Assembly (NCBI RefSeq): GCF_021044585.1
Contig: NZ_CP087998.1
Span: 2,170,001-2,234,000, forward strand
Direction: 5' to 3'
DNA length: 64,000 bases
Origin: Sulfurimonas sp. HSL-3221
GTDB lineage: Bacteria; Campylobacterota; Campylobacteria; Campylobacterales; Sulfurimonadaceae
The notes beneath the pieces are model-generated. The model was given only the letters and a program-made list of their open reading frames with translations, made no database searches and had not been told where the DNA came from. Every line of letters begins with the position of its first letter. The first letter of the stretch is position 1. This document shows, one piece after another, positions 3,652-38,820 of the stretch. Position numbers and translations under genes: made by a program.

Positions 3652-5465
3652 TGTGCGGCATTGTCGGCTACCTCGGAAAACACGATACGAAAGGGATCCT
3701 GCTCGACGGCCTCAAAGAGCTTGAATACCGCGGCTACGACTCCGCGGGGATCGCCGTTCTGCAGGCAGAGGAGTTCTCCTACTTCAAAGCGGTCGGCAAG
3801 CTGGCCAATCTTGAGGCTAAAACGGCAGACTTCACGACCAGCGGTTTTGCCGCGGGAATCGGCCACACCCGCTGGGCAACCCACGGGAAGCCGACCGAGA
3901 TCAATGCCCACCCCCACCTGGGCGATGCCTCTTACGTTGTGCACAACGGTATCATCGAGAATTACCAGGAACTCAAGAACGCCCTGATCGCCGAAGGTGT
4001 CCATTTTCTGAGCCAGACCGACACGGAAGTGATCGTCCACCTTTTCGAATCCCTGTTGAACGGCGGGATGAAGCCTTTCGATGCCTTCCGCGAAACCGTG
4101 AGCCGCCTCAAGGGAGCGTACGCGATCCTGCTCGTCACCAAGCAGATGCCCGAAACGATCTTTTTTGCGAAGCACGGCTCTCCGATGATCGTCGGCGTGA
4201 ACGAGAGCGATGAAAAGTTCTTCGGCTCCTCCGATGCGGCACTGATCGGCAAATGCCACCGTGTCATCTACCTCGAAGACGGCCAGCTTGGTTTCGTGTC
4301 GCGCACGGGGATCCATCTCGAAGATGCCAATGCCGCTGCGGTCGTACCGCGCTTCGCCGCGCTGCCGGAATCGAAGCTCTCCGCGCAGAAAGAGGGGTTC
4401 CGTTTCTTCATGGAAAAGGAGATCTACGAACAGAGCGAAGTGCTCTCCGATACCCTGATCGGCCGGCTCGCGGAGGAAGCGATCCTCTTCGAGGAGCTCG
4501 ATGCTTCCCTGCTCGAAGGGATCAACGAGATCAAACTCTGCGCCTGTGGGACGAGCTACCATGCCGCCCTCGCTTCAAGCTACCTCTTCGAACGCCTCGG
4601 CAAGATCCGCACCTCCGTCGAGATCGCCAGCGAGCTGCGCTACAAAGAGCCCCTGCTCTGCACCGACACGCTCTTCGTCGTTATCAGCCAGAGCGGTGAA
4701 ACCGCCGATACCCTGGAGACGCTCAAGATGGCCAAGGCCGCAGGGCTGAAGACCCTTGTCGTCTGCAACGTCGACAACTCCTCCATGGTCCGCGAGGCGG
4801 ACGCCGCCATTCTCACCCGCGCCGGAATTGAAAAGGGGGTCGCCTCCACCAAAGCCTTTGCGACGCAGATGGCAGTACTGTGGATGTTCTCCCTCTACGT
4901 CGCCCAGACCAAAAACACGATCGATACCGAAACCTTGCGGAAGCAGATTGGTCTGCTGCGCGAAGTTCCGGCCGTCGTCCGGGTCCACGACGACCTGCAC
5001 GAACGTATCCGCCGTCTCTCCAAACGCTATCTGCACGGCCACGGCTTCTTCTTTATCGGGCGGGACATCTTCTTCCCCCTCGCCCTCGAAGGCGCCCTCA
5101 AGCTCAAGGAGATCAGCTATCTCCATGCCGAAGGGTACCCCAGCGGCGAAATGAAACACGGTCCCATCGCTTTGGCCGACCCGGAACTCTTTACGATCGC
5201 CCTGATGCCAAAGAACCTGCTCTATGACAAAACGAAGAGCAACGTCGAGGAACTCAGTGCCCGCGATGCCACGATCTGCGCCATCAGCGATGCCCCCTTT
5301 GACAAAGCGGACGATTTCATCCCCATTGCCGCACATGACCACTATATGCTCGAATTCTTTGAAACGATGGTCGTCCTGCAACTGCTCTCTATGGAGATCG
5401 CCATCCGCCTCGGCAACGACGTCGACATGCCAAGAAACCTCGCGAAAAGCGTTACCGTCGAATAG
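3651..5465 (+). CDS. glmS: glutamine-fructose-6-phosphate aminotransferase GlmS
   Basis: Makes glucosamine-6-phosphate from fructose-6-phosphate and glutamine, the first step to UDP-GlcNAc for peptidoglycan and lipid A. The 604 residues match the family. Cys2 (MCGIVGYLG) is the glutaminase nucleophile. The N-terminal class II amidotransferase domain has GHTRWATHG and is followed by two SIS domains (CGTSYHA and ISQSGETADT in the first, HGFFFIGRD in the second). The C-terminus ends in the conserved SVTVE. Its ATG overlaps the glnD stop. Coupling to glnD places a major glutamine consumer with the glutamine sensor. Four bases after its stop begins a long heptamer repeat array. Confidence 0.97.
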   Translation: MCGIVGYLGKHDTKGILLDGLKELEYRGYDSAGIAVLQAEEFSYFKAVGKLANLEAKTADFTTSGFAAGIGHTRWATHGKPTEINAHPHLGDASYVVHNGIIENYQELKNALIAEGVHFLSQTDTEVIVHLFESLLNGGMKPFDAFRETVSRLKGAYAILLVTKQMPETIFFAKHGSPMIVGVNESDEKFFGSSDAALIGKCHRVIYLEDGQLGFVSRTGIHLEDANAAAVVPRFAALPESKLSAQKEGFRFFMEKEIYEQSEVLSDTLIGRLAEEAILFEELDASLLEGINEIKLCACGTSYHAALASSYLFERLGKIRTSVEIASELRYKEPLLCTDTLFVVISQSGETADTLETLKMAKAAGLKTLVVCNVDNSSMVREADAAILTRAGIEKGVASTKAFATQMAVLWMFSLYVAQTKNTIDTETLRKQIGLLREVPAVVRVHDDLHERIRRLSKRYLHGHGFFFIGRDIFFPLALEGALKLKEISYLHAEGYPSGEMKHGPIALADPELFTIALMPKNLLYDKTKSNVEELSARDATICAISDAPFDKADDFIPIAAHDHYMLEFFETMVVLQLLSMEIAIRLGNDVDMPRNLAKSVTVE

Positions 5466-5469
5466 TAAG

Positions 5470-5643
5470 GCGAAAAGCGAAAAGCGAAAAGCGAAAAGCG
5501 AAAAGCGAAAAGCGAAAAGCGAAAAGCGAAAAGCGAAAAGCGAAAAGCGAAAAGCGAAAAGCGAAAAGCGAAAAGCGAAAAGCGAAAAGCGAAAAGCGAA
5601 AAGCGAAAAGCGAAAAGCGAAAAGCGAAAAGCGAAAAGCGAAG
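5470..5643. repeat. heptanucleotide tandem array, about 24 copies of GCGAAAA
   Basis: From four bases after the glmS stop, the 7-bp unit GCGAAAA repeats without visible error about 24 times and then degrades into GCGAAGCC. Seven is not a multiple of three and the unit gives no stop codon, so every frame on both strands stays open through it. This creates spurious reading frames with a seven-residue peptide repeat. It lies between the 3' ends of two convergent genes (glmS and amt1), so it does not obviously control a promoter. Such arrays change copy number easily through slipped-strand replication. Confidence 0.95.
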
Positions 5644-5726
5644 CCTGTCAGCGTCCACTTATTTTGTCAAGGTTTTAGAAGATCATTAGCGGGTCGAGCG
5701 GATTCGTGATGAGTGGAGGATAACCG

Positions 5727-5757
5727 AGGGCGGCAGCCCTTTGTGCTTTCTTCTTCC
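5727..5757 (+). terminator. possible terminator for glnD-glmS
   Basis: Stem AGGGC/GCCCT with loop GGCA at 5727-5740, followed by TTGTGCTTTCTTCTT, a T-rich but interrupted tail. It is about 260 bases after glmS, beyond the repeat array. The stem is only five base pairs, so support is moderate. Confidence 0.35.
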
Positions 5758-5852
5758 CGGTTCGACTTCTGCTTTGCACAGGCAGAGAAGAAGGGGAACA
5801 AAAAAACCTGAAGAAAAAAACGAGTACCGTTTCCGGGGAATGCCCGAAAAGG

Positions 5853-7034
5853 TTAGAACGCCCGCTTGAACTCCGGGTAGGCTTCAAGACCACACTCGGT
5901 GACATCAAGCCCTTCGACCTGCTCATCGTCTCCCGCACGGAACGGCAGGAATCTGTTGATGATATAGATTGCCGCGTACGACACGGTGAAAACGAACACC
6001 GCAACGACTGCGACCCCTTTGAGCTGGCCAAGAAGGGTAATCCCCGCTTCGGGCTCGGCGGCGAAGATGCCGACGGCCAGGGTCCCCCAGATCCCGTTCA
6101 CGAGGTGGACCGAAAGAGCACCGACCGGGTCATCCAGTTTCAGCCTGTCAAACAGCGGGACGGCAATGACGACCAGCGCGCCGCCGATGGCACCGATGAT
6201 GATCGGCGTATGGATATCGTAAAGATCAGGGCCCGCCGTAATGGCAACAAGCCCGCCCAGCGCACCGTTGAGGATCATCGTGATATCGAACTTTCGGTAG
6301 CGCAGATACATAAAGATCCCCGCGATCAATGCCCCCGCCAGGCCCGCGGTATTGGTATTCATGATCGTGAGCGCCACCGTATCCGCGTTCTCTTTGCTGG
6401 CAATTGAACCGACGGAACCGCCGTTGAAACCGAACCAGCCGATCCACAGCAGCAGTGCACCCAGAACGACCAGAGGGATGTTCGATGCCGGGATGACATG
6501 GATCTTGCCGTCTTTGTAACGCCCTTTACGGGGTCCCATGATCATGATGGCCGCCAGCAGCGCCCAGCCGCCCGTCGAGTGGATGACGGTCGAACCGGCG
6601 AGGTCGTACATTGTCAGATCCAGTATGGTCCCGGCCAGTAGATCCGCGCCCCAGGAGACGTTGACAACGAGCGGATAGATAAACCCTCCCATCAGCACGG
6701 TAAAGAGGGCTATCGGCAGAATCCGCACCCGCTCGCTCACCCCGCCGCTCATGATATTGACGGTCTTCCCGACGAAGGCCATCTGGAACAAAAAGGCGGC
6801 ATAGATGCTCATCCCGCTGTTCTCCCAGCCGCCGAAGGCCAGTTGGTAGCCCACGAGCAGGAACATCACCGATGCAACGGCATAGATCATCGTATTGACG
6901 GTGAGAACGGAAGTGACGTTTTTCGTACGGACAAGCCCCGCTTCGAGCATGGCGAAGCCGGGCACCATAAAGATGATCAGCGTCATCGCAAAGAGGGCGA
7001 AGAGGGTGTCGACAATATAACCGAAATTTTCCAT
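5853..7034 (-). CDS. amt: ammonium transporter Amt (first copy, coupled to PII)
   Basis: Inner-membrane ammonium channel of the Amt/Mep/Rh family, 393 residues with about 11 hydrophobic segments and no cleavable signal peptide. The Asp of DLAGSTVIH and the two pore histidines, in VIHSTGG and in LSVHLVNGIWG, are in place, as is the N-terminal signature GFAMLEAGLVRTKN. It follows glnB1 by 8 bases, giving the classic PII-Amt pair in which PII blocks the channel when nitrogen is plentiful. It differs clearly from the second Amt at 8.0-9.3 kb, which has a signal peptide and is longer, so the two are not a recent tandem copy. Confidence 0.93.
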   Translation of the reverse strand: MENFGYIVDTLFALFAMTLIIFMVPGFAMLEAGLVRTKNVTSVLTVNTMIYAVASVMFLLVGYQLAFGGWENSGMSIYAAFLFQMAFVGKTVNIMSGGVSERVRILPIALFTVLMGGFIYPLVVNVSWGADLLAGTILDLTMYDLAGSTVIHSTGGWALLAAIMIMGPRKGRYKDGKIHVIPASNIPLVVLGALLLWIGWFGFNGGSVGSIASKENADTVALTIMNTNTAGLAGALIAGIFMYLRYRKFDITMILNGALGGLVAITAGPDLYDIHTPIIIGAIGGALVVIAVPLFDRLKLDDPVGALSVHLVNGIWGTLAVGIFAAEPEAGITLLGQLKGVAVVAVFVFTVSYAAIYIINRFLPFRAGDDEQVEGLDVTECGLEAYPEFKRAF

Positions 7035-16063: not shown

Positions 16064-17773
16064 TCACCCTTCGTAGCTGCGGGCGATGCGCCGGAAATCC
16101 TCCGAACGTTCCATCAGTTCCGCGAAAGTGCCCGCGTCTGTGATTTCGCCCGCTTTGAAGAAGTAGAGTCTGTCGGCGTGTTCTACCGTCGTGAGGCGGT
16201 GGGCGATCATAATGGTGATCTTGTCTTTCGTGTAGGACGCCAGTGCCTTTTGGATGCGGAGTTCGCTCTCGTTGTCCAACGCGCTGGTCGCCTCGTCGAG
16301 GATCAGCACGGAAGCGTTCTTGTAGATGGCCCGCGCGATGGCGATGCGCTGGCGCTGGCCGCCCGAGAGGTTCGCACCCCCCTCTTCCATCAGGGTATGG
16401 ATCCCCTCCGGCAGCCCCTGGGCAAACTCATAGGCGTCGGCCAGTTTCAGCGCCTCGATGACCCTCGCTTCGTCCAGTTCCAGACCGTAGGCGACGTTTT
16501 CGGCGAGGCTGTCCTGCATGACGTAAACGCGCTGGGAGACGACGGCCATCTGCTTGAGCAGGGAGCGGTGGTCATACTCCCGCACGTCCCGGCCATTGAC
16601 GCGCAACTCTCCCTCTGATGGATCGTAAAAACGCAGAAGAAGGTTGACCAGCGAACTCTTCCCGCCCCCGCTGTCGCCGACAAGGGCGATCTGCTCGGAG
16701 GGGTGGATGGAGAGCGACACATCCCGCAAGGCGCGTGTCTCCCCGTAATCGAGTGCGACATGGCTAAATCCGATCTCCCGGATCGGTTCCTCCAGAAGCG
16801 CACTCCCCTCTTCGATCATGCTTTCGCGGTCGAGGACGCTGAAGATCCGCTCGCTGGCGGCGATGGCGTTCTGGATCTTCCCGTAGATGGAGCTGACGCG
16901 CCGCAGCGGCTGGAAGGTGAGCCCCACGGCCGTCAGGAACGCCGTAAACTCCCCCACCGTCATCTGGTTGTTGAACACCTGCTGCCCCGCGATAAAGATG
17001 ACGGCGGCCAGGCCTGTAGCGCCCAGGACCTCCATCATCGGCGAAACGATCTCGTTCGTGTAGACCGCTTTCATGTTCAGCTTGAAGAACTTGTTGTTCT
17101 CCGCATCGAAGCGTCCCATCTCGTAGGCCTCCGTCCCGTTGGCCTTGATGATCTCGGCGTTGTTGAAGACCTCGGTTAGGCGAGTAACGACATCGGCATT
17201 CTTCTCCTGTGAGCGGTGCGAGAGGCGGCGCAGGCGCTTGGCAATGAGGATCAGCGGGTAGATCGCCAGCGGCAGCACGACCAGTGAATAGAATGCCAGT
17301 TCGGCGTTGAGGTAGATGACGTAGACGACGAGGCCAAGTGCCGTCAAAGACTCCCGGACCAGTTCGGGCAGCATATTGGAGACGAAGTACTGTACCCGGT
17401 TGATATCGTTGGTGATGCGGCTGATCAACTCCCCGCTGCGGTTGGCGTGCAGGAAAGCCATATCCAGGTGGAGCATGTGATCAAGCAGCTGTGATCGCAG
17501 CCTGGTAATGATATGCTGGCCTATGTAGTTCATGAAAACGGCCTGGAGGTAGCGCCCGACCGATTTGACGACGTAGATGCCGATCATCATCAGGGGGATA
17601 TAGTAGAGCATCTGCGGATCTTTCTCGATGAACATCTTGTCCATCAGCGGCTGCATGATCTGCGCCGTCGCCACGGTGGCGAGCACCGTCATGATGATCC
17701 CGATCAATACGATTGAATAGTAGCCTTTATACCCCTTGATATAGGGCCAAAACCGCCTAAAAGTCTGTTTCAT
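16064..17773 (-). CDS. msbA: lipid A export ABC transporter MsbA-like
   Basis: Half-transporter of 569 residues with an N-terminal six-helix membrane domain (to about residue 310) fused to an ATPase domain. The ATPase has Walker A GDSGGGKSS, signature LSGGQRQR and Walker B VLILDEATSALD, with the switch His in IAHRL. The layout and its place at the head of an LPS gene block fit the MsbA flippase that moves lipid A-core to the outer leaflet of the inner membrane. Its ATG overlaps the stop of the upstream sulfatase-like gene by four bases (ATGA). A related exporter of another lipid is the alternative. Confidence 0.82.
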   Translation of the reverse strand: MKQTFRRFWPYIKGYKGYYSIVLIGIIMTVLATVATAQIMQPLMDKMFIEKDPQMLYYIPLMMIGIYVVKSVGRYLQAVFMNYIGQHIITRLRSQLLDHMLHLDMAFLHANRSGELISRITNDINRVQYFVSNMLPELVRESLTALGLVVYVIYLNAELAFYSLVVLPLAIYPLILIAKRLRRLSHRSQEKNADVVTRLTEVFNNAEIIKANGTEAYEMGRFDAENNKFFKLNMKAVYTNEIVSPMMEVLGATGLAAVIFIAGQQVFNNQMTVGEFTAFLTAVGLTFQPLRRVSSIYGKIQNAIAASERIFSVLDRESMIEEGSALLEEPIREIGFSHVALDYGETRALRDVSLSIHPSEQIALVGDSGGGKSSLVNLLLRFYDPSEGELRVNGRDVREYDHRSLLKQMAVVSQRVYVMQDSLAENVAYGLELDEARVIEALKLADAYEFAQGLPEGIHTLMEEGGANLSGGQRQRIAIARAIYKNASVLILDEATSALDNESELRIQKALASYTKDKITIMIAHRLTTVEHADRLYFFKAGEITDAGTFAELMERSEDFRRIARSYEG

Positions 17774-19776
17774 TCACTCCCCTTTTCCCATACGGGTTTC
17801 GCCTGTTCATGCGCCTGCCGCACCAGGTATTCGGTCACGGCCAGTGCGGCGTTGTACTTCTGTTCGCAGTCGCGCTGCTGTTCGTTGGCGGCATGGCCGG
17901 TTTTGAACGCACCCCCGCTTGAGACGACAACTCCGGCGTCGTTGTAACCGCAGTGTAGAGCATTCGGGTCATAAAGGTCTTCCCCCACGGCCGTATAGGC
18001 CGTTTTGGAAAGGGTACGGCCGTAGAGCGTCGGGAAGAGGTCGTTGTGCGACGCGCTGACGTTGCGGTCGAACGGTTCGACTCGCAGGTACGGCGGCAGG
18101 TAGAGATAGAAGGGAATCTGTTTCCCCTCCTGAAGGGGATGGTCGTAATGCATGATCCCCTCGATAGTGTTGTTATCCGCGGTGATGGCAACGACGGTTT
18201 GCTCTGCGAGTGCTGACGCTTTGACCCCATCCATGAAACGCCCGGCCATATCGAGGGCGTACTGGTAGTCCTGCAGCCGACGGTGCGCCAGGTCCATATC
18301 CCCGGTAATGTGCGCCTGCAGTTTTTCCGTAAATTCCAGCGGCTTCGAGTCATAGCTTTTGGAGAGGACATACGGGGGGTGATTGTTCGTCGTCAGGATA
18401 AAGACGAACTGGGGAGTCGTCGCCTGCTCCAGCTTCTGCAGCACGAAGTCATAGGTATACCGGTCGTAGACCCCGTAATCATGCTCTTCCGCCCCGGGGA
18501 AGAGACGTTCGATGTCGCTTTTCCCCTCGACATGATCAAACCCCTGCTCTTTGAAAAAACTGCCGACGTTGCGCCACGAGAGGTCCCCGCCGTAGACGAA
18601 ATTCGTCTCATAGCCCGCCTTTTTGTAGATCCGCGCCGCTGCCTGGGGGAAAGCGGTACGCTGGTAACGGCTCTGCCCGTAGGCGATGCTGCCCGGACGG
18701 GCGACGACGTTGAGCAGAAAAGGCTCCATCGACGCGATCGTCCCGTTGCCGCCGGAGATGAAGTTTGTAAAGAGGATATCCTCGTCAAAGTGCCGCTTGA
18801 GCCGGCGCAGGATATCGAAAGTAGGGCTCTGATACTGCAGGATCGGCGCCCCGAAACTCTCCACCATGACAACGACGACATGGGGCGGTTTCGCCGCTGC
18901 CGCTTCATTCGGCTGCGTTGTCCGCAGCAGGTTCGACGCGAGATCGGCCGTATTGATTTGGTCCCGTCCGAGATAGTCCCTGAAGGCCTGCGGCACTCTG
19001 CCTTTGTAACCGCTGCGCTTGATCAGATCGTAACCGCCGTTTTTGTCTTTCAGGTACTGTTTGAGCGCTTTATCGAAGGCAAAGACGCCGCTGCGCGGGA
19101 TGGCATTCACAAAAACGTCCGTCGAGACCTCCGGCACATCTTTGAGCAGGGGAAAAAGCCCGAGGCTGCCCCGTGCACCCACCCCGACCAGCAGCAGCAG
19201 TACGAGATAGACGGCTGCCGCTCTCATCGGACCGGTCTTGGCGGCGGAAGGACGGACGTCGCGGAAGAAGCGGCCGACGAGCCATACCAGCGCAAGGGCG
19301 TAAAAGAGGATCACTCCTATGATCAGGGTGACATTGTAGTTTTTGAGCCCGATCTGCACGAGGGCCCGGGTATCATCGTCGAAGAAGCCGAAGAGCATGA
19401 TCGTGATGTGCTCCCCGAAGTAGGAGTAGAACCCGAAATCGATCCCTACCAGGGCGCTCACGATCAGGTAGACGGCGGTGAAGTATCCGCGAAAAAGCCG
19501 CGGCAGCCACGGCAGCGGCACGACGTTCCGCGCCAGGTGGTTCAGGATGATCACCAGCAGCGGCAGGGCCATGAGGTAGCAGACAAGCACCAGGTCGATC
19601 CGCAGCCCCAGGAAGAACGCCTCCGCCAACTCCCGGCCGGGGAAGGAAGTCTTCGGAGGCGAGAACTGCCAGAAGAACAGCAGACGGGAAAGGGAGAGCA
19701 GCAGCAAGAAAATCAGCTGGAGTTTCACCGTCTGCCGCAGCAGACCGAAATAGTATTGCACCGGCGAGTATGTCAC
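17770..19776 (-). CDS. LTA-synthase-like sulfatase-fold membrane protein (first)
   Basis: 668-residue protein with an N-terminal membrane part (about five segments to residue 190) and a C-terminal periplasmic alkaline-phosphatase-superfamily domain. In that domain VVVVMVESFG holds the first metal ligand and SGGNGTIASMEPF holds the likely nucleophile Thr. The later site reads TADNNTIEG where active relatives have D-H-G or D-H-Y, so a metal ligand may be altered. In Gram-negatives such proteins often move phosphoethanolamine or phosphoglycerol onto glycans or lipids. The start is GTG with weak AAGGG upstream. It precedes and overlaps msbA, suggesting a role in LPS modification before export. 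Confidence 0.75.
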   Translation of the reverse strand: MTYSPVQYYFGLLRQTVKLQLIFLLLLSLSRLLFFWQFSPPKTSFPGRELAEAFFLGLRIDLVLVCYLMALPLLVIILNHLARNVVPLPWLPRLFRGYFTAVYLIVSALVGIDFGFYSYFGEHITIMLFGFFDDDTRALVQIGLKNYNVTLIIGVILFYALALVWLVGRFFRDVRPSAAKTGPMRAAAVYLVLLLLVGVGARGSLGLFPLLKDVPEVSTDVFVNAIPRSGVFAFDKALKQYLKDKNGGYDLIKRSGYKGRVPQAFRDYLGRDQINTADLASNLLRTTQPNEAAAAKPPHVVVVMVESFGAPILQYQSPTFDILRRLKRHFDEDILFTNFISGGNGTIASMEPFLLNVVARPGSIAYGQSRYQRTAFPQAAARIYKKAGYETNFVYGGDLSWRNVGSFFKEQGFDHVEGKSDIERLFPGAEEHDYGVYDRYTYDFVLQKLEQATTPQFVFILTTNNHPPYVLSKSYDSKPLEFTEKLQAHITGDMDLAHRRLQDYQYALDMAGRFMDGVKASALAEQTVVAITADNNTIEGIMHYDHPLQEGKQIPFYLYLPPYLRVEPFDRNVSASHNDLFPTLYGRTLSKTAYTAVGEDLYDPNALHCGYNDAGVVVSSGGAFKTGHAANEQQRDCEQKYNAALAVTEYLVRQAHEQAKPVWEKGSE

Positions 19777-19850
19777 GCGTCTATGCCCTTTTTAAGGCGT
19801 ATTATACAGTGTTGGCACCCTCTGGTATACTTTCACAAAAAAGTGACACC

Positions 19851-21674
19851 ATGACATCGCAGCATCTTGCCCTCTTTTTCAAAGCCAACCTGCTCACGAC
19901 CGGTCTGCTCTCACTGGCCTTTGCCCTCTTCAACAGCCACTACACCCCCTCGGCCCTGCTCTTCACCGCGGCGGCCCTGCTCTCGACGACGGCGACGCTT
20001 TACCTTATCTACTGGCTGCTTCTGCGCGCTTTTTTCCGCCTGACCCGTCTGGCGGCGGTGCTGCTTCTGCTACTGTTCTTTCTCACCGATCTCCTACTCA
20101 TGACCGACTTCGCCATCTACCGCATCTGGAACTTCCATATCAACGGCATGGTGCTCAATATCCTCTTTTCGCCGGCCGCCTACGACAGCCTGCAGATGAC
20201 GGGCCAGGCCGTCGTAATCGTCTTCATCGTCATTGCCGTCCTGGCGGCGCTGCTGCTCCTCGGGCTGAAGCGGATCGCCCGGATTCCCGCCCAGAGGGCA
20301 TTGCGGGTTAACCGCCGGCTGAACCGCAGCCTCGTGCCCCTGCTCTTCCTCGTCATCGTCGGCGAAAAGCTGACCTACGCCGTCGCCAACCTTCACCTTG
20401 ACGGCAACATCCTCGAACGCACGAAGGTCGTCCCCCTTTACCAGCCGCTGCTGATGGACGACCTGCTCATCGGCACCTTCGGCATGAAAAAAGCGCAGAA
20501 CGACGGGATCAGCGTCAATATCAAGAAGATTACCAACATCCGCTACCCGCTGCACCCCATCAGCGTCACCCATCCCAAAACGCCCAACATCTTCATCTTC
20601 GGCGTCGACGCCCTCCGCCCCGACATCGTCAACGACGACAACATGCCGAACATGGCCGCCTTCAAACGCGAGGCCGTCGATTTCGAACGCCACTACAGCG
20701 GCGGTAACAATACGCGCTTCGGCTTCTTCTCGATCTTTTACGGCATCAATTCCAGCTACTGGTTCGGCTTCCTCAATGCCAAGAAGGGGCCGGTACTCTT
20801 CGAGACCCTCAAGAAACTGGGCTACCAGATCAGCATCGACTCCAGCGTCAACACGGCGTGGCCGGAGTTCCGGCAGACGATCTTTTTCGACGTCCAGGAC
20901 GAAATCAAGGATGATTACAACGGTACCAAGACCGAGAACGACCTGGCGACCGTCAACTATTTCGACGAGTGGCTGGGACGCCAGGAGCCGGACAGACCCA
21001 TGTTTGCCTTCGTCTGGCTCGATTCGGTCCACAGCCGGGCCTACGACGACGCTTTCCGAAAGTACACCCCCGACAAGGTCAGCAGCCAGTACCTGACGGC
21101 GACCGCCGAGGAGAGAACGGAGCTCTTCAACATGTACAAAAACGCCGCCTACGAAGTCGACGACCGCTTCGCGCGTTTCATTGCCGCCCTCAAGGCCAAG
21201 GGGCTCTACGACGACGCCGTCATCATCGTCCTCTCCGACCACGGTCAGGAGTTCTTCGAGCACGACCATTACGGCCACAACTCCGCCTACGACCGCGAAC
21301 AGGTCGGTACGCCGCTGTATCTCCGTATCCCGGGCACGGGACCGAAAAAGATAACCCGCCTCACCTCGCACCTTGACATCGCCCCGACGCTGATGGCGAT
21401 GCTGGGGGCGGACAACCCCGCAAGCGACTATGCCCACGGGCATGATCTCTTCGCCCCGGACTACCGCCGCGAATGCGCCTTCGTCGGGAACTGGAACGAA
21501 AACGCCATCATCTGCAAAAAAGAGACTTTCGTCATCTCCGACGTCCTCTCCAAGGCCTTCAACAACGAGATACGGGATACAGAGACATACAAAAAGATCA
21601 AACTGAACGATAAGAAAAGGATGAATGAAATCATGATCAAAAGTCTGGAGGAGAACCGGCAGTTCAGCCGGTAA
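19851..21674 (+). CDS. YejM/PbgA-like inner-membrane sulfatase-fold protein
   Basis: 607 residues from the ATG at 19851 (an upstream in-frame start at 19770 would overlap the divergent gene). Five N-terminal membrane helices are followed by a periplasmic domain. It resembles E. coli YejM/PbgA, a regulator of LPS synthesis: HYSGGNNTRFGFFSIFYGIN matches HMSSGNTTDNGIFGLFYGIS, and PASDYAHGHDLFAP matches PASEYSQGQDLFNP. Unlike YejM, whose metal site is decayed, this protein keeps GVDALRPD, the Thr of NNT, SDHG and later His residues (GHNS, SHLDIAPT), so it may be an active enzyme. It is divergent from the LTA-synthase-like gene. Confidence 0.8.
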   Translation: MTSQHLALFFKANLLTTGLLSLAFALFNSHYTPSALLFTAAALLSTTATLYLIYWLLLRAFFRLTRLAAVLLLLLFFLTDLLLMTDFAIYRIWNFHINGMVLNILFSPAAYDSLQMTGQAVVIVFIVIAVLAALLLLGLKRIARIPAQRALRVNRRLNRSLVPLLFLVIVGEKLTYAVANLHLDGNILERTKVVPLYQPLLMDDLLIGTFGMKKAQNDGISVNIKKITNIRYPLHPISVTHPKTPNIFIFGVDALRPDIVNDDNMPNMAAFKREAVDFERHYSGGNNTRFGFFSIFYGINSSYWFGFLNAKKGPVLFETLKKLGYQISIDSSVNTAWPEFRQTIFFDVQDEIKDDYNGTKTENDLATVNYFDEWLGRQEPDRPMFAFVWLDSVHSRAYDDAFRKYTPDKVSSQYLTATAEERTELFNMYKNAAYEVDDRFARFIAALKAKGLYDDAVIIVLSDHGQEFFEHDHYGHNSAYDREQVGTPLYLRIPGTGPKKITRLTSHLDIAPTLMAMLGADNPASDYAHGHDLFAPDYRRECAFVGNWNENAIICKKETFVISDVLSKAFNNEIRDTETYKKIKLNDKKRMNEIMIKSLEENRQFSR

Positions 21675-28250: not shown

Positions 28251-29297
28251 ATGACGCATCCCGCCACCGGCATGCTTATCGCCCACGCCAACTTCGCCAA
28301 GGGATTCCGCGGCGGCGAGCGGCAGACGCAGCTGCTGATCGAAACACTCTCGCAGCGGGGCTACCGCCAGCGGCTGCTCGTGCGCAAAGGTTCGGAACTG
28401 GGACGGCGCTGCCGGGGCATTGCGAATCTTACCGTCATCGAAATCGGCAAACCCTACGCCCTCCACCTGGGCCATCTCAAAGGCGCGGGAGTGCTGCACG
28501 CCCATGAAACAAAAGCGGCGCAGTTCGCCCTCTTCGGCAAATGGTTCCTCGGCATCCCGTACATCGTCACGCGGCGGGTCGACCACGCCATCACAAACAA
28601 CGCCTTCAACCGGTCGATTTACGCCTCCGCCGCGCAGTGTGTCGCCCTATCCGAAGCCATCAAAACGGAGATCCTAAAGATCGTCCCGGGGACCGATGTC
28701 GCCATCATCCCCAGTGCCTGGAGCCGTCTGGATACAGATGAAGAGCGTATCCGTCAGCTGAATACCCGGTTTGAGGGGAAATTTATCGTCGGGCAGATCG
28801 GCGCGCTTGTCGACGCCCACAAGGGGCAGGCCGTCCTCATCGAGGCGGCCCGCATCCTGGAACGGAGCCACCCCGATATCCATATCATCTTGCTCGGGGG
28901 CGGCAGCGACGAAGACGTGCTGAAAGCGGCGGCGGCGGATCTTGGCAATATCACCTTTGAAGGGTTCGTCAACAACGTCGGCGACTATCTGGCATGTTTC
29001 GACCTCTTCGCCTTCCCCTCCCGCTACGAAGGGCTCGGTTCCATCCTCTTTGATGCCATGCAGTTCGATGTGCCCATCGTCGCCTCGAATGTCGGCGGCA
29101 TCCCCGACATCATTCATGATGACGCCAACGGCCTCCTCGTGCCGCCCGGCGATGCCCGTGCGCTCGCCGAGGCCATCAAGCGCCTTTACGGCGATGCTGC
29201 CCTTCGCGCGCGGTTGAGCGCCCGTGCCCGGGACGAACTCGACGCCTACTCGCCCGCCGCTATGACCGAAAAGTACGAACGGCTCTATCGGCGCTAA
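28251..29297 (+). CDS. glycosyltransferase family 4
   Basis: 348-residue GT-B glycosyltransferase. The N-terminus has FRGGERQTQLL. The C-terminal donor-binding domain shows VGQIGALVDAHKGQAVLIEAA, the E-x7-E pattern in FPSRYEGLGSILFDAMQ, and VASNVGGIPDII. The sugar specificity cannot be read from the sequence. A small hairpin (29299-29313) follows its stop. Confidence 0.88.
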   Translation: MTHPATGMLIAHANFAKGFRGGERQTQLLIETLSQRGYRQRLLVRKGSELGRRCRGIANLTVIEIGKPYALHLGHLKGAGVLHAHETKAAQFALFGKWFLGIPYIVTRRVDHAITNNAFNRSIYASAAQCVALSEAIKTEILKIVPGTDVAIIPSAWSRLDTDEERIRQLNTRFEGKFIVGQIGALVDAHKGQAVLIEAARILERSHPDIHIILLGGGSDEDVLKAAAADLGNITFEGFVNNVGDYLACFDLFAFPSRYEGLGSILFDAMQFDVPIVASNVGGIPDIIHDDANGLLVPPGDARALAEAIKRLYGDAALRARLSARARDELDAYSPAAMTEKYERLYRR

Positions 29298-29298
29298 G

Positions 29299-29313
29299 CG
29301 CTGAAAATCAGCG
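29299..29313 (+). terminator. hairpin after GT4, weak terminator
   Basis: Perfect 6-bp stem CGCTGA/TCAGCG with loop AAA just past the stop codon. There is no T-run after it, so termination is uncertain. Confidence 0.3.
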
Positions 29314-29367
29314 AACCCCAACACCCTTTACTGTATTATTATCATCACACAAACAAGGAAATACTCT

Positions 29368-30225
29368 ATGTTCGGAAACGTCAAAGCAAAGCTCGACCTG
29401 CTTAAAGACTACTTTTATACGAAACGGGCGCTGAAAGCCGAGCCGCACCTTTTTGACCATGTCGAAACCTACTGTATGTTCGTCGGCTATCCGCGCAGCA
29501 GCCACAGCCTGATCGGCTCGTTGATCGACGCCCATCCCCAAACCACTATCGCCCACGAGCAGGATGTGCTCAAGTATATCAAGTACGGGTTTTCGAAAGA
29601 GGCCATCTTTCACCTTCTGCTGCGCAACGCCAAGGCGTTCACCGAGGCCGGCCGCGAGTGGACGGGCTATTCCTATGCCGTCGAAGGCCAGTACCAGGGC
29701 AAATACACCGACCTGAAGGTGATCGGCGACAAACGCGGGGGGAACAGCTCCAGGCGTTTCAGCCGGAACCCGGAACTGCTGAAGAAACTGAAAAAGACCA
29801 TCGACCTCCCGATCAAATTCATTCACGTTATCCGGAACCCCTACGACAATATCAGCACCATGGCCTACCGGGCCGTCGGTTCGGACAAAAGCAAAGTGAC
29901 GCCGGAAGCGTTAACAGGAGAACTCGAACACTACTTCTCCCTCGTGGAGACGGCGAATTCGGTCTTTAAACAGGTGGATGCGGACGATGTGATCCATATC
30001 AAAATCGAAAACTTCATGGAGCACCCGAAAGAGGAGCTGAAAAGAGTATGCGATTTTCTCGGCCTTGAGACGACCGAGGAGTATCTCGATGCCTGCGCGG
30101 CGATCGTCTATACGAAACCGCATAAAACCCGTAACGACTATACGTGGGACGACGCGCTCAAAGCACGGGTGGCAGGGGAGATCGAAAAGTATCCCTTCTT
30201 CGAAGGCTACAGCTTTACGGCTTGA
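29368..30225 (+). CDS. sulfotransferase family protein (first)
   Basis: 285 residues with the two PAPS-binding signatures of sulfotransferases: the 5'-phosphosulfate loop YPRSSHSLIGSLID near residue 40 (normally GxxRSGT-like) and the 3'-phosphate site VIRNPYDNISTMAYR near residue 155. The C-terminal VCDFLGLETTEEYL is also typical. Cytosolic, with no signal or membrane segment. Acting in an LPS locus it probably sulfates a core or O-antigen sugar, but the acceptor is unknown. AAGGAA precedes the ATG. It converges with the second sulfotransferase, and their ends overlap by 11 bases. Confidence 0.8.
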   Translation: MFGNVKAKLDLLKDYFYTKRALKAEPHLFDHVETYCMFVGYPRSSHSLIGSLIDAHPQTTIAHEQDVLKYIKYGFSKEAIFHLLLRNAKAFTEAGREWTGYSYAVEGQYQGKYTDLKVIGDKRGGNSSRRFSRNPELLKKLKKTIDLPIKFIHVIRNPYDNISTMAYRAVGSDKSKVTPEALTGELEHYFSLVETANSVFKQVDADDVIHIKIENFMEHPKEELKRVCDFLGLETTEEYLDACAAIVYTKPHKTRNDYTWDDALKARVAGEIEKYPFFEGYSFTA

Positions 30226-30946
30226 AAGCGTAGCCGAGCTCTTCCATCTTTTCCCCGGCGATCTCCCAGAACTGCTCTTTCCAATGGCGCGGCCATTCGT
30301 CATACTTGGGGAAGAACTCGATCCGGTTGCGGTTGACTTTCTTCTCCAGGGAAGCACGGACCTTCGCTTCGTCATACACCAGGCCGTCAAACTTCGCCAG
30401 GATGTCGAAGATGAGCTCTTTGTTCGTCTTAAAGAGCTCCTCGAACTTGATAATCATGTCCGGCTGGGTCTCGATGGCGCGGGTGTTGACTGTTTTCCAG
30501 TACCAGGCCAGTTTCTGCAGCGCGTTCCAGTTCTCCCACAACGCCTGCGCCGGGTCGCCGGGAATATGGAAGGGGGTCATGTGGTCGTTCGTGATATAGC
30601 GGCCGCGGTTGAGCCATGAGGTCACAACATCCCTGCCGTCGCGGACGATGTGGAACACGAGGGCATCGGGGAAGGCGTCTCGGATCAGCGGAATAGCGGC
30701 GAAAAGGTGGTAGTTCGTTTCCACGTACCACTCTTCGGAATGCTTCATGTGCCACCAGCGCCGCGGCAGCGCAAAGTAGTATTTCTCCCACATTGTGTGG
30801 GGGCGCGACATCAGCTGGTGCCCCCGCTTTCTGAATGCGGGTTTCGGTTCGTGCAGGCTCCAGGAGTTCTCAACGACATTGTTGAAAAAATCGGTAAAGA
30901 AATCGGTCCCGGTCCGTCCCGTAGAAACAAAAAAAGCTGTCTTCAA
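30215..30946 (-). CDS. sulfotransferase family protein (second)
   Basis: 243 residues from a TTG at 30946. This start is chosen because AAGGAG sits exactly five bases upstream and it places the PAPS loop FVSTGRTGTDFFTDFF directly at the N-terminus, as in the family; the open frame extends 36 codons further with no such support. The second site is HIVRDGRDVVTSW near residue 100. It is only distantly like the first sulfotransferase, so the pair was not made by local duplication. Acceptor unknown. Confidence 0.8.
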   Translation of the reverse strand: MKTAFFVSTGRTGTDFFTDFFNNVVENSWSLHEPKPAFRKRGHQLMSRPHTMWEKYYFALPRRWWHMKHSEEWYVETNYHLFAAIPLIRDAFPDALVFHIVRDGRDVVTSWLNRGRYITNDHMTPFHIPGDPAQALWENWNALQKLAWYWKTVNTRAIETQPDMIIKFEELFKTNKELIFDILAKFDGLVYDEAKVRASLEKKVNRNRIEFFPKYDEWPRHWKEQFWEIAGEKMEELGYAFKP

Positions 30947-31134
30947 GCTTTCTCCTTCTTGAATATTAAATAGTCTTCTCTGCACAGCGGTCCTCTTGGT
31001 AGAAGGCTTTTTTCGGCAATGCGACGCTATTGCCTGTGCAGTCATAAAGAGCATTGCATTGTAAAAAGATTGTACTCAATGCGATATTAGAAGCGAATAG
31101 CACCACTCAGCGACAAGGAGCGTACCCGCTACTT

Positions 31135-32154
31135 TTAAACGGGCACGTTATTGCGTTTAAGATACCACTCCACCGTCTTGACGATCCCGCTCTCAAAATT
31201 TTCGTCTGCTCTCCATCCGAGCTCCGTTTCGATCTTCGTCGCATCAATGGCGTATCGGCGGTCGTGCCCCGCCCGATCCTCGACGTAACGGATCTGTTCC
31301 TTGTAACTTCCATCTGATTTTGGTTTAAACCCATCAAGAATCTTGCACACCTTATCCGCAATGTAGTTGTTGGTACGCTCGTTGCTGCCACCGATATTGT
31401 AGACCTCTCCGCTACACCCTTTATGGTAGGCCAGGTCGATCCCTTTACAATGGTCGAGTACATAAAGCCAGTCACGGATGTTCTTGCCGTCACCATAGAT
31501 GGGGATAGACTCTCCCGCAAGAGCTTTACGGATGATCGTCGGAATCAGCTTCTCGTCATGCTGCTTCGGGCCGTAGTTGTTCGAGCAATTCGTGATGACG
31601 GTGTCCATACCGTACGTGTGGTGGTAGCTGCGTACGACCATGTCGCTGCCAGCTTTTGACGCACTGTAGGGGGAGTTTGGAGCATAGGGCGTCTCTTCGG
31701 TAAAGAACCCCGTTTCTCCCAGGGTGCCGTACACTTCGTCAGTGGAGATGTGGTGGAAGCGGCACCCTTCAAACCCCTCCTTGTAAACGAAGGGTTTGTG
31801 CATCCACCGTTTATATGCGACGTCGATCAGGGTAAAGGTACCGTTCACATTCGTCTCGATAAAGACCCCGGGGTTAGCAATAGAGTTGTCGACGTGACTC
31901 TCGGCCGCAAAGTGGATGACGCCCCGGATATCCAAGTCCTCGAAGAGCTGCTCGACGAGAGCACGGTCGCAGATGTTGCCTTCGACGAAGGTGTAGCGCT
32001 CGTGCCCCTCCACCTCTTTGAGGTTCTCGAGGTTCCCAGCGTAGGTCAGCAGGTCGAGGTTGACAAGGTGATACTCCGGGCACTTCTCCAGGAAATAAGG
32101 AACAAAGTTGCTGCCGATGAAGCCGGCACAGCCGGTGACGAGAATCGCTGTCAT
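31135..32154 (-). CDS. rfbB: dTDP-glucose 4,6-dehydratase
   Basis: 339-residue short-chain dehydrogenase/reductase that makes dTDP-4-keto-6-deoxyglucose. It has [10 protein letters not shown] for NAD, the DEVYG and active-site pattern [13 protein letters not shown], and the YSASK catalytic pair. It overlaps rfbA by four bases. Together with rfbA it feeds WecE. No rfbC or rfbD (rhamnose branch) is present in the window, so the product here probably goes to the Fuc4N branch. Confidence 0.95.
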
Positions 32155-33020
32155 CTCTCCTCCACCAGTTCGATAAGATACTGACCGTACTCCGTCTTTT
32201 TAAGCGGTTCGGCCAGTTTTCTGACTTGCTCGGCATCGATCCAACCGTTGGCGTAGGCGATCTCCTCGATACAGGCGATCTTGTATCCCTGCCGGTGTTC
32301 GATGGTCTGTACGAACTGCCCCGCATCCAGCAGGCTGTCGTGGGTACCCGTATCAAGCCAGGCATACCCGCGCCCCATCAGTTCCACCTGCAGCGCTCCA
32401 CGCTCAAGGTACATCCGGTTCACGTCGGTAATTTCCAGTTCACCCCGTTCCGACGGTGTGATACCCTTGGCAATCTCCACGACATCGTTGTCGTAGAAAT
32501 AGAGGCCCGTCACGGCGAAATTGGACTTAGGCTTTTCCGGTTTCTCCTCGATCGAGATGGCACGTCTGCTCTCATCAAATGCTACAACGCCGAAACGCTT
32601 CGGGTCCTTGACCTTATAGCCGAATACCGTGGCACCCTTTTCGCGTGCGGCGGCTTTTCGCAAAATGGTCGTAAAATCCTGTCCAAAGAAGATATTGTCC
32701 CCCAGCACCAAACAGACACTGTCATCCCCGATAAAATCCTCTCCGAGGACAAAGGCCTGCGCCAAACCTTCCGGTTCGGGCTGGACAACGTATTCGAAAC
32801 GCATCCCGATATCGCTGCCGTCACCAAGCAACTCCTGAAACCGCGGCAGGTCCTTTGGGGTGGAGATAATCAGTACCTCGCGGATCCCGGCGAGCATCAA
32901 TACTGAAAGAGGATAATAGATCATCGGCTTATCGTAGACCGGCAGCAGCTGTTTGGAAACACCCTTCGTAATCGGATAGAGCCGTGTCCCGCTGCCCCCG
33001 GCCAAGATAATGCCTCTCAA
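32151..33020 (-). CDS. rfbA: glucose-1-phosphate thymidylyltransferase
   Basis: Forms dTDP-glucose from glucose-1-phosphate and dTTP. 289 residues from a TTG at 33020, giving [18 protein letters not shown], the exact N-terminus expected. The long open frame upstream lies in ugd and is not part of it. Motifs [11 protein letters not shown] and [15 protein letters not shown] are typical. The start lies two bases after the ugd stop, with TGAGG shared by the ugd end as the ribosome site, so translation is coupled. Confidence 0.95.
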
Positions 33021-33022
33021 CC

Positions 33023-34345
33023 TCAGACCCCAATCTGGAAGTATTCGAATCCGAGACGCGCCATACGTTCCTTGTCGAACTGGTTGCGGCCGTCGAAGAA
33101 GATGGGGCTGTTGAGGCGTTTGTCGATCTCGTCGAAGTCGGGGCTGCGGAACTCCTGCCACTCGGTGACGAGGATGAGCGCGTCGGCGCCGGTGAGAGCG
33201 TCGTATTTGCTGTCGACGTATTCGACGCTCTCGTTGCCCTTGAGATAGTAGCTCTCCGCCTCGTGGCGGGCTTTCGGGTCGTAGGCCTTGATCTTCGCGC
33301 CGCGTGCCGTGAGGGCGTTGATGATCGTGATGGAGGAGGCTTCGCGCATATCGTCCGTTTCCGGTTTGAACGCCAGCCCCCAGACGGCGAAGGTAAGGCC
33401 CGAGAGCTCCTCGCCGAAACGTTTGATCACCTTGTCCGCCATGACCATCTTCTGATCGTAGTTCACCGCTTCGACGGCGTCGAGGATCCGCGGGGTATAG
33501 CCGAAATCCTTGGCGGTTTTGGCGAGGGCCTGCACATCCTTGGGAAAGCAGCTGCCGCCGTAGCCGCAGCCCGGGTAGATGAAGCTGTAGCCGATGCGGC
33601 CGTCGCTGCCGATGCCGTGGCGCACTTTGTTGACGTCCGCGCCGACGCGTTCGCAGATATTGGCCATCTCGTTCATAAAGCTGATCTTCGTCGCGAGCAT
33701 CGCGTTCGCGGCGTATTTGGTCATCTCGGCGCTTTTGATATCCATCCCGATAAAACGGTCGCTCTTTTTCATGAAGGGGGCGTAGAGGTCGTGCATGACC
33801 TGCATCGCCGTCTCGCTCTCGGCACCGATGACGACGCGGTCTGGGTGCATGAAGTCCTCGATGGCCGCGCCCTCTTTGAGGAACTCCGGGTTGGAGACGA
33901 CGTCAAACGCCAGGTCGACGCCGCGCTTGTCCAGTTCTGTCTGGATCGCGGCTTTGACCTTGTCGGCCGTACCGACGGGAACCGTCGATTTGTCGACGAC
34001 GACCATGTAATGCTGCATATGCTCGCCGATGCTTTTGGCGACGGCCAGCACGTACTGAAGGTCCGCGCTGCCATCTTCGCCCATCGGGGTACCGACGGCG
34101 ATAAAGGCGACATCCGTCGAAGCGATCGCCTCCTGGATATCGGTCGTGAATGCCAGGGTGCCCTTCTCGTGGTTCTCCAGGACCATCGTCTCCAGACCCG
34201 GTTCATAGATCGGGATGATCCCCTGGCGCAGTTTCGCGATCTTTCCCTCATCGATGTCCACACAGGTGACGCTGTTGCCCATCTGCGCAAAACAGGTCCC
34301 GCTGACCAGGCCGACATAGCCCGTGCCGATGACGGATATTTTCAT
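33023..34345 (-). CDS. ugd: UDP-glucose 6-dehydrogenase
   Basis: Oxidises UDP-glucose to UDP-glucuronate with NAD. 440 residues from the ATG at 34345, which has AGGAG eight bases upstream; the open frame upstream reads into the divergent gene and is discarded. Rossmann motif [14 protein letters not shown] at residue 7, the catalytic Cys in [12 protein letters not shown], and a C-terminal FDGRNQF. It begins the ugd-rfbA-rfbB operon. UDP-glucuronate would supply an acidic sugar for LPS or capsule; no epimerase is seen nearby. Confidence 0.95.
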
Positions 34346-34501: not shown

Positions 34502-36388
34502 ATGATTTTTTTGCGCAACTACTTTACGCTGTTTGCACTCGCCTATCTGCTGCTGGCGGCGACCAAACTGCTTTTTCTCGCCTTCTACGCCGATCGTTTC
34601 GGCGGCTACCCCTTTGCATCCCTGCTGCACGCCCTTGTATGGGGGTACCGTTTCGATTTCGCCGCCGCCGCCATCGTCACGCTGTTTGCGACGCTGGGGC
34701 AGTTTAATGCCCGGCTTCTGCACATCGGTGCCGCGCTGCTTCTCGGTTCGCTCGTCATGCTGCAACTCTCCGACATTCTCTACTTCGAAGATGCCTCCCA
34801 CCATATCGCCTACGAGATCACCGATGTTTTCAACGATGCCGGCGGGCTTTTTATGACGGCGCTCGGGCAGAACACCCTCTTCACCCTCACCGCACTGACC
34901 GCCGTGCCGCTGATGGTATGGGGCTTCTACCGTTTTGGCCGCGCCCGGCTGCACCCGGTTCCCCTCGACCGCTACTACCTTCCGAAAACCCTGCTGCTGT
35001 TGGGCCTTTCCGTCTTCTTCATCCGCGGGATGTTCGCGCACATCCCCCTGACCCCCTGGCAATCAAGCCAGATCGGAGACGCCCGCCTGGCGCAGCTGGC
35101 ACTTAACGGGAGCTACAGCGCCCTCTTCTCCCTCGTCGACACGGAAGGGCGTCTCCTGCCCCGACGCGTCGCCAAGCTTTCGCCGCGGGAAGTCAAACGG
35201 GGGTTTGCCGAAATCTATAACGACGGCAGCACCGCGAACGGCATGGACGCCGCGCCGAACGTCATCTTCTTCTTCCTAGAAGGGTGGAGCGGCGTCAATA
35301 TGCAGCCCTACGGGCATGCGCTCCAGACGACACCCTTTTTCGACAGTATCCTTCCCCGTTCGCTCCGTCCGAAAGCCGCGATTGCCGGCGGTCACCGGAC
35401 GACGGAAGGGATGTTCACCACCCTCGTCTCCTATCAGAACCCCCTTGCCAGGAGTGTCGCGAAAACCCAGCTGCAGAACTTCCGCTACCGTTCGGTCATC
35501 GACCTCTTCAATGCCCGCGGATACCGCAGTATCTTCTTCCAAGGGACAGCCAAGGAGACCAGCGGCACGGGCGCGCTGGCACAAAAACTGGGTTTTCGAG
35601 AAAGCTACGGCAAAGAGGACGTGACCGAACGCCGATTCGGAAGCAACTTCTGGGGCGTCTACGACCAGGACCTCTACGCCTTTACCCTGCAGAAACTCGG
35701 GGAGAGTTCTTCGCCTTTCGTGCTCGGTATCAACGGTGCCACGACCCATGACGACAAGCTCCCGGAGGGGGTCGGGAAAACCCGTTTCGCCGATGATGAA
35801 AAACAGAACAACCGCCTGAATGCGCTGCATTTTGCGGACGCGGCCCTGGGAGAGTTCGTCGCGGCGGTGCAGGTACGCTACCCGAACACGCTCTTTGTCT
35901 TTTTCGCCGACCACTGCGGCGGAGGCGTCGACGGCACCTTTGAGAACTTTATGATCCCCCTTGCCTTCTACGGTGCCAGCATTGCACCGCACTACCTCGA
36001 CCATTATGTGTCGCAGCGTGACATCGCCCCGACCGTCGTCGACATCGTCTTCGGGGATTACAAAAAACTGATGCCGGATTTCAGCGGAAAATCGCTTGTC
36101 AGCGATCACCATTTCGTCGCCGATTATTACCGCAACGGCATCTTGGGGTGGGTCGAGGGGATGCAAGCCGTCGAGTACCTTGCTGACACGGGAGAAGTCA
36201 CCTGCTATGACGTCTCCCGATACAGGGCAAAACCCGCAGCGTGCGAGCGCAATTCCGAAGACTATACCCTGCGCGCCGCCGCCTTTACCGACGTCTCCCA
36301 GCGACTGCTGTTTGCCGGGGAAACAGGCCGTTTCCATACCTACCGCGCAACCCGGCCGGCGTACGCCTCTCTGGCGGGCAGACGCTGA
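34502..36388 (+). CDS. LTA-synthase-like sulfatase-fold membrane protein (second)
   Basis: 628 residues with about five N-terminal membrane segments (to residue 190), then an alkaline-phosphatase-superfamily periplasmic domain. [12 protein letters not shown] carries the first acidic ligand, [20 protein letters not shown] the candidate nucleophile Thr, and [11 protein letters not shown] the D-H pair, with QRDIAPT later. It is only loosely like the 17.8-19.8 kb protein. A transferase of phosphoethanolamine or phosphoglycerol onto LPS is the best guess. It is divergent from ugd and followed after 25 bases by the glycosidase-like gene. Confidence 0.72.
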
Positions 36389-38731: not shown

Positions 38732-38820
38732 ACACCATGAATGTATGAAATCGATTGAAGCGTATGAAGTCATTGAGGCGGCGGAGCGTCTGATCGTCCA
38801 GCCCCGCCGAGAAAGAAAGT
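38732..38820 (+). pseudogene. remnant of a waaF 3' end
   Basis: A 48-bp copy of the waaF end (to 38779) followed by GGCGGAGCGTCTGATCGTCCAG, which translates to AERLIVQPRRERK, parallel to the AEKLIV end of the intact gene but with different codons. It has no start and runs into the end of the antisense outer-membrane protein gene. It looks like the original waaF tail left behind when a related tail was inserted in front of it. Confidence 0.6.

Follow-up and report, generated by a model that had tools for sequence, protein, structure and literature searches.

Sulfation of bacterial surface glycans has been described or proposed in a few systems that resemble the locus studied here. Marine bacteria such as Vibrio sp. 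KMM 8419 have sulfated capsule or O-antigen clusters, in which cysNDC and several sulfotransferases lie among surface-polysaccharide genes; the Vibrio study treats the presence of PAPS genes and sulfotransferases in a polysaccharide cluster as a hallmark of the synthesis of sulfated polysaccharides (PMC11641403). A sulfotransferase that acts on lipopolysaccharide (LPS) itself is LpsS of Sinorhizobium meliloti, listed under the Stf0 family (PMC12445080). For Campylobacter coli, a role of cysDNCQ of the capsule locus in capsule formation or modification was inferred in 2007 (PMC2147049). The original prediction held that sulfated LPS is little described in Campylobacterota. This holds in part. 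Topic searches of the open-licence literature showed, among the papers listed, none that describes a sulfated LPS structure in the phylum; the capsule proposal of 2007 already concerned a surface glycan of C. coli (PMC2147049). A specialist would expect genes of this kind. The point of interest is that two of them occur jointly and are swapped, in related species, against a kinase-like cassette.

The window analyzed here, by which we mean the whole stretch of 64,000 nucleotides from Sulfurimonas sp. HSL-3221, carries an msbA-like transporter gene, hldE, hldD, and a heptosyltransferase II gene, as well as genes for GT4, GT90, GT2, and GT56-like glycosyltransferases and for a Kdo/WaaP-like kinase. 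Judged from sequence, this gene content appears to fit an LPS core region, in agreement with the LPS locus that had been predicted. Immediately downstream of the heptosyltransferase II gene, a stretch of about 48 bp (38732-38779; repeated peptide MKSIEAYEVIEAAE) duplicates its 3' end; the repeat is present in the sister genome of the same genus (G288) too.

As predicted, two sulfotransferase genes lie side by side in this locus in convergent orientation. Gene A (29368..30225, + strand) encodes a Sulfotransfer_3 family sulfotransferase of 285 aa, and gene B (30215..30946, - strand) encodes a divergent sulfotransferase of the same family, of 243 aa and with a TTG start. Both open frames are present and both products score over the Sulfotransfer_3 cut-off; the frames run tail to tail and overlap by 11 bp. 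For B, we prefer TTG 30946 to ATG 31054 as the start because three observations agree on it: AAGGAGA lies just 5' of the TTG, DNA homology to G288 stops at 30959, 13 bp before the TTG, and the homologue of B on a metagenomic contig (L009, described below) starts at the same residue. Between the genome of the window (G000) and G288, A has a dN/dS of 0.078 and B has 0 non-synonymous versus 37 synonymous changes, and both genes are under purifying selection. The two proteins are only distantly similar, as had been claimed: a BLASTP comparison gave a non-significant E of 0.14 over 50 residues, and a profile-profile comparison (hhalign, with very shallow profiles) gave no match. Recent arrival was considered on the basis of base composition and rejected, as A and B (GC, 0.54-0.56) are not outliers relative to the other genes measured (0.51-0.64). 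A promoter and terminator scan of 29150-31250 returned sites no more numerous than in shuffled sequence.

Protein A matches Pfam Sulfotransfer_3 (PF13469) over residues 39-236 with an E of 2e-14 and 54.8 bits (cut-off, 27), and it is also over the cut-off for Sulfotransfer_1 (E 2.8e-7); of the two matches that a Sulfotransfer_1 search of its own genome returned, one is A itself and the other lies outside the window. PAPS-binding loops had been predicted for both proteins, and in both, candidate P-loop-like and 3'-phosphate-like motifs are visible by eye, which we take to be the 5'-phosphosulfate loop and the 3'-phosphate motif of sulfotransferases. The putative 5'-phosphosulfate loop of A, read from the translation, is GYPRSSHS (residues 40-47; 29485..29508, + strand). 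In an alignment with human tyrosylprotein sulfotransferase 2 (TPST2), it falls on the P-loop region, and it is identical in the L009 homologue of A. The usual form of this loop is PxSGTT, relative to which that of A is atypical. The putative 3'-phosphate-binding motif of A, RNPYDNIS (R156-S163; 29833..29856, + strand), is likewise identical in the L009 homologue.

A structure model of A, built from a two-row alignment, reached a pLDDT of 68.7, with residues 30-45 below 50 and the P-loop stretch below 60. It gave 115 Foldseek matches at E <= 0.001, of which the top one was 4gox (E 1.9e-7). Among the best 50 of the 115, all are sulfotransferases, most of them by title and a few (StaL, Teg12, and retinol dehydratase) as members of the family, and TM-scores by query length are modest (0.33-0.48). 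The model of A thus has a sulfotransferase fold. In VIA-align comparisons, heparan 3-O-sulfotransferase-3 (6xkg; Z 12.2, rmsd 4.3, 213 aligned) and TPST2 (Z 12.0, rmsd 3.8, 213 aligned) are tied, and this equal nearness would suit an alternative in which one or both proteins use a non-glycan acceptor, such as a peptide tyrosine, a lipid, or a small molecule. A and B sit, however, among glycosyltransferase and sugar-nucleotide genes, and we consider such an acceptor improbable.

Protein B is the more divergent case. It matches Sulfotransfer_3 with an E of 4e-6 and 27.6 bits, 0.6 bits over the cut-off of 27, with the best stretch at positions 79-154 of the 216 in the profile; its Sulfotransfer_1 score of 17.8 bits is below the cut-off of 22. 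All three close members of the B group (3/3) match Sulfotransfer_3 at E <= 0.01, and the relative on a second metagenomic contig, L010, scores 20.5 bits, under the cut-off of 27. The model of B (pLDDT 45) is of too low a quality to be useful; Foldseek gave no match at E <= 0.001, and weak tyrosylprotein sulfotransferase rows were set aside. By sequence, no solved structure matches B at E <= 1, and when a 3-row profile of B was compared with solved structures, the best match was a tyrosylprotein sulfotransferase with an E of 0.052. The case for B is built on Pfam and on motifs, which weakly suggest membership in the Sulfotransfer_3 family. The P-loop-like motif TGRTGT (residues 9-14; 30905..30922, - strand) has the pattern T-G-R-x-x-T, and the putative 3'-phosphate-binding motif RDGRDVVTS (R102-S110; 30617..30643, - strand) belongs to a VR...S pattern. 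Both patterns are kept in 11/11 aligned rows, which include B itself, a doubtful relative (L019; E 7e-7 over 29 residues versus B), and four near copies of one another (L033, L035, L036, and L037), so that the rows are not 11 independent cases.

It could be argued that B is inactive as a sulfotransferase and is instead a related protein with a nucleotide or a glycan as its ligand. The marginal Pfam score, the L010 relative under the cut-off, the poor model, and the lack of a solved structure at E <= 1 all lean this way. The retention of both motifs in all aligned rows, the Sulfotransfer_3 matches of the close members, and the lack of any amino-acid change between two species despite the 37 synonymous changes lean the other way, and we give the inactive reading little weight. 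In our view, both A and B are most likely PAPS-dependent sulfotransferases that act on the LPS core or on some other glycan of the cell surface.

The pair occupies a slot whose content varies within the genus. At its left edge, immediately upstream of A, is a gene for a family-4 glycosyltransferase (28251..29297, + strand; Pfam Glycos_transf_1 E 2.2e-35) that is conserved in G288 and in the other two genomes of the genus sample, G191 and G359. Upstream of B, the right edge in G000 and G191 is rmlB, named from sequence as a dTDP-glucose 4,6-dehydratase gene (31135..32154, - strand), which is kept at the site in G191 (89%) and not in G288 or G359. Also on the - strand are rmlA, for glucose-1-phosphate thymidylyltransferase (32151..33011, provisional start; TIGR01207 518.7 bits over 32154-33011, cut-off 360.65), and ugd, for a nucleotide-sugar dehydrogenase of the UDP-glucose 6-dehydrogenase type (33023..34345; TIGR03026 455.6 bits over 33026-34324, cut-off 189.8). 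The ugd product scores 533 bits with the TuaD equivalog, below the cut-off of 700, and the gene forms the right edge in G288 and G359. The rmlB-rmlA segment (30959-33022), at the site in G000 and G191 and absent there in G288 and G359, is a second presence/absence difference directly beside the A-B block; in G288 and G359, rmlB-rmlA-like genes are found near the cys cluster instead.

Neither A nor B was found in G191 and G359, where a gene for a 361-aa Glyco_transf_9 protein and a YrbL-type gene (645-651 aa) lie between the same flanking genes. The 361-aa products match Glyco_transf_9, the heptosyltransferase family, with 50.5 and 43.8 bits (cut-off, 22). The larger proteins (L059 7777-9732 and L060 7643-9580) match YrbL-PhoP_reg at their C-terminus, with E values of 1.3e-36 and 9.5e-38, and have a GxxGxGKTT P-loop in their middle part. 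YrbL proteins are kinase-like. The fusion of a P-loop with a YrbL C-terminus, beside a family-9 glycosyltransferase gene in both L059 and L060, looked to us like an unusual architecture. A search for this cassette in the window and in the other examined stretches of G000 and G288 gave no match. Homology between G000 and G191 breaks off near 29287 and is found again from 31160, and that between G000 and G359 breaks off near 29290 and is found again from 33027, with rmlBA also missing there. The A-B block is thus a replacement of cassette size at gene boundaries.

The content of the slot in the sister species, a family-9 glycosyltransferase (heptosyltransferase) together with a P-loop/YrbL kinase-like fusion, makes phosphate decoration by its products possible. 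A broader reading builds on this: the slot would be a charge-swap site of the LPS core, at which sulfate here replaces the possible phosphate of the sister species, and A-B would be a two-step sulfation module that is mobile across phyla. We consider this broader reading unlikely.

Both genes are rare. At E <= 0.001, B was found in 4/397 and A in 5/397 genomes sampled from the phylum of the window, and strong matches of each (E < 1e-100) were confined to G000 and G288, which carry A-B at one locus with 94.5% DNA identity. A pattern scan of genome contigs with B, which picks up close relatives only, returned two: L009, from a Deltaproteobacteria metagenome-assembled genome (MAG), and L010, from a Planctomycetia MAG, at 73% and 65% identity, respectively. 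The L009 contig, 7.9 kb in length and binned to the former MAG, carries homologues of both A (56% identical) and B, in the same convergent order and with a gap of 34 bp. Directly upstream of A on this contig is a third, different sulfotransferase gene (5392-6201), which brings that module to three. A comparison of its product with A, B, and both sulfotransferases encoded near the cys genes described below (the gene at 2391229 was not among them) gave a best E of 0.004 over 38 residues, and within this set a counterpart was rejected. Outside the phylum of the window, B was found at E <= 1e-10 in 7 of 297 genomes of the L009 phylum, with a strong match only in the L009 genome, and A was found in 1/85 genomes of the L009 class, again the L009 genome itself. 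In the L010 genome, B is present and A was not found; the pairing is thus not obligatory. No relatives of A or B were found in plasmids, nor were any found in viral contigs by a pattern search that detects close relatives only, and on the basis of these two collections a plasmid or phage vehicle for the pair was rejected.

A gene for an LtaS/OpgB-like enzyme (PF00884; 34502-36388) shows the same presence pattern as A-B: G000 and G288 have it, and G191 and G359 lack it at the corresponding position. Two more genes of the window (17770-19776 and 19770-21674) match LtaS/OpgB-like enzymes, and on L009 an LtaS-like gene adjoins the A-B pair. A functional link of A and B with the LtaS-like gene was weakened, as the L009 protein is closest to 17770-19776 and not to 34502-36388.

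The original prediction had the two genes recruited separately, and on this point the evidence runs against it. The same convergent pair occurs on L009, strong matches of A and B fall in the same 2/397 genomes of the phylum, and together A and B fill the one slot that G191 and G359 fill with other genes. Since both genes are rare and B lies beside A in 3/3 genomes with a strong A (G000, G288, and G397), the sequence data argue for joint transfer and inheritance as a pair. Outside the genus, the pairing is known from a single short MAG contig, which could be misbinned.

It is nonetheless conceivable that the two enzymes have separate targets, with A sulfating, for instance, an LPS core sugar and B a capsule or O-antigen sugar, that the genes are neighbors simply through the tendency of polysaccharide loci to gather such genes, and that their adjacency on L009 reflects coincidence or a shared hot spot. 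A and B end separate gene runs, A following a glycosyltransferase gene and B following ugd-rmlA-rmlB; in the L010 genome, B was found and A was not; and sulfotransferases are numerous in the L009 genome, with 9 Sulfotransfer_3 matches, although some are pieces of one gene. Against this stand the same partner and convergent order on a contig binned to another group and the rarity of both genes, with strong matches of B in 2/397 and 1/297 genomes and of A in 2/397 and 1/85. We consider separate products somewhat unlikely, and think it probable that A and B are PAPS-dependent sulfotransferases whose genes form a convergent cassette that entered a variable slot of the LPS core locus as a unit and has been retained as one.

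Such enzymes require a donor, and it had been predicted that no PAPS synthesis genes lie in the window and that the supply comes from elsewhere. A genome-wide search for APS kinase agrees with the first point, as far as this one enzyme is concerned: both matches, CysC at 2268669-2269121 (E 4e-73) and a weak one at 504828, are outside the window. The second point is borne out by a run of cys genes on one strand of the same chromosome as A-B (G000:C1:2267816-2273763), 34-40 kb beyond the window end (2234000) and some 67-73 kb away from the A-B pair. The run consists of cysQ (2267816-2268598), cysC (2268591-2269226), a gene for a DASS/SLC13-type transporter (2269633-2271366), cysN (2271377-2272852), and cysD (2272852-2273763). 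The genome search suggested for cysN, cysD, and cysC thus found all three, with cysQ, and all four are over their NCBIfam cut-offs. The transporter passes the Pfam cut-offs for CitMHS and Na_sulph_symp and is below the NCBIfam cut-off for the DASS subfamily, and for this reason we regard sulfate as its presumed substrate. Two further sulfotransferase genes lie near the run, one of the Sulfotransfer_3 family (322 aa) and one of the Sulfotransfer_2 family (247 aa); Sulfotransfer_3 matches occur at four places in the G000 genome.

Donor genes and Sulfotransfer_3 transferases go together in the phylum sample. Sulfotransfer_3 (E <= 1e-5) was found in 38/394 genomes and APS kinase (E <= 1e-20) in 147/394. 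A strong CysC (70 genomes at E < 1e-50, a cut chosen after the list had been seen) is present in 29/38 genomes with Sulfotransfer_3 versus 41/356 others (Fisher 3e-17), and any APS kinase match in 36/38 versus 111/356 (Fisher 6e-15), with both statistics ignoring phylogeny; the remaining 2/38 genomes with Sulfotransfer_3 are without any APS kinase match. In the genus sample (n=4), G000, G288, and G359 have both CysC and a Sulfotransfer_3 match, and G191 has neither at those thresholds. Among the matches listed, at least some 30 genomes have a second APS-kinase-like gene, roughly 240-260 aa in length and matching with E values of about 1e-40 to 1e-45, which in most cases adjoins CysC or lies no more than about 4 kb from it, for example, G145:C1:450877-451317 beside 451486-451935.

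Based on this gene content, which is observed, we infer the activities of the donor route. Sulfate would be taken up via the DASS/SLC13-type transporter, CysDN would convert it to APS, and CysC would convert APS to PAPS. A and B would then place the sulfuryl group on hydroxyls of a glycan being built in the cytoplasm, and CysQ would clear PAP, the by-product. Given that A and B are dissimilar and yet inherited together, their targets would most likely be two distinct positions, or two residues, of a single glycan. That glycan would probably be the outer core built by the neighboring glycosyltransferases; it is the gene neighborhood that suggests the LPS core as the acceptor of A and B. The enzymatic activity, the acceptor, the joint transfer, and the order of the steps are all what we infer from the genomes.

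If this explanation is true, the locus provides a concrete, testable instance of sulfated LPS for which the donor genes, the transferases, and sister species naturally without the pair are all at hand, and a rare gene pair common to distant groups offers a handle on how envelope-decoration modules move. If it is not true, this is an ordinary accessory glycan-modification locus.

Compared with known systems, A shares its fold with the tyrosylprotein and heparan 3-O-sulfotransferases, at 8-18% identity among the matches listed and in a different context. LpsS is listed under Stf0 (PMC12445080), whereas A and B are Sulfotransfer_3 proteins, and a Pfam search of both up to E 0.1 brought up no Stf0 family. 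The C. coli locus is from the same phylum and, as here, combines genes for PAPS synthesis and PAP removal. There, they lie inside a surface-polysaccharide locus, the string "sulfotransfer" does not occur in the main text of the paper, and the proposed role is likewise drawn by inference (PMC2147049). For Vibrio sp. KMM 8419, the paper describes a solved capsule structure and three sulfotransferase genes in three regions of an 80-gene cluster (PMC11641403), in contrast to the convergent pair in an LPS core locus found here. PAPS genes in surface-polysaccharide loci, with sulfotransferases, were thus known already; what is new is the A-B pair and the slot that it occupies.
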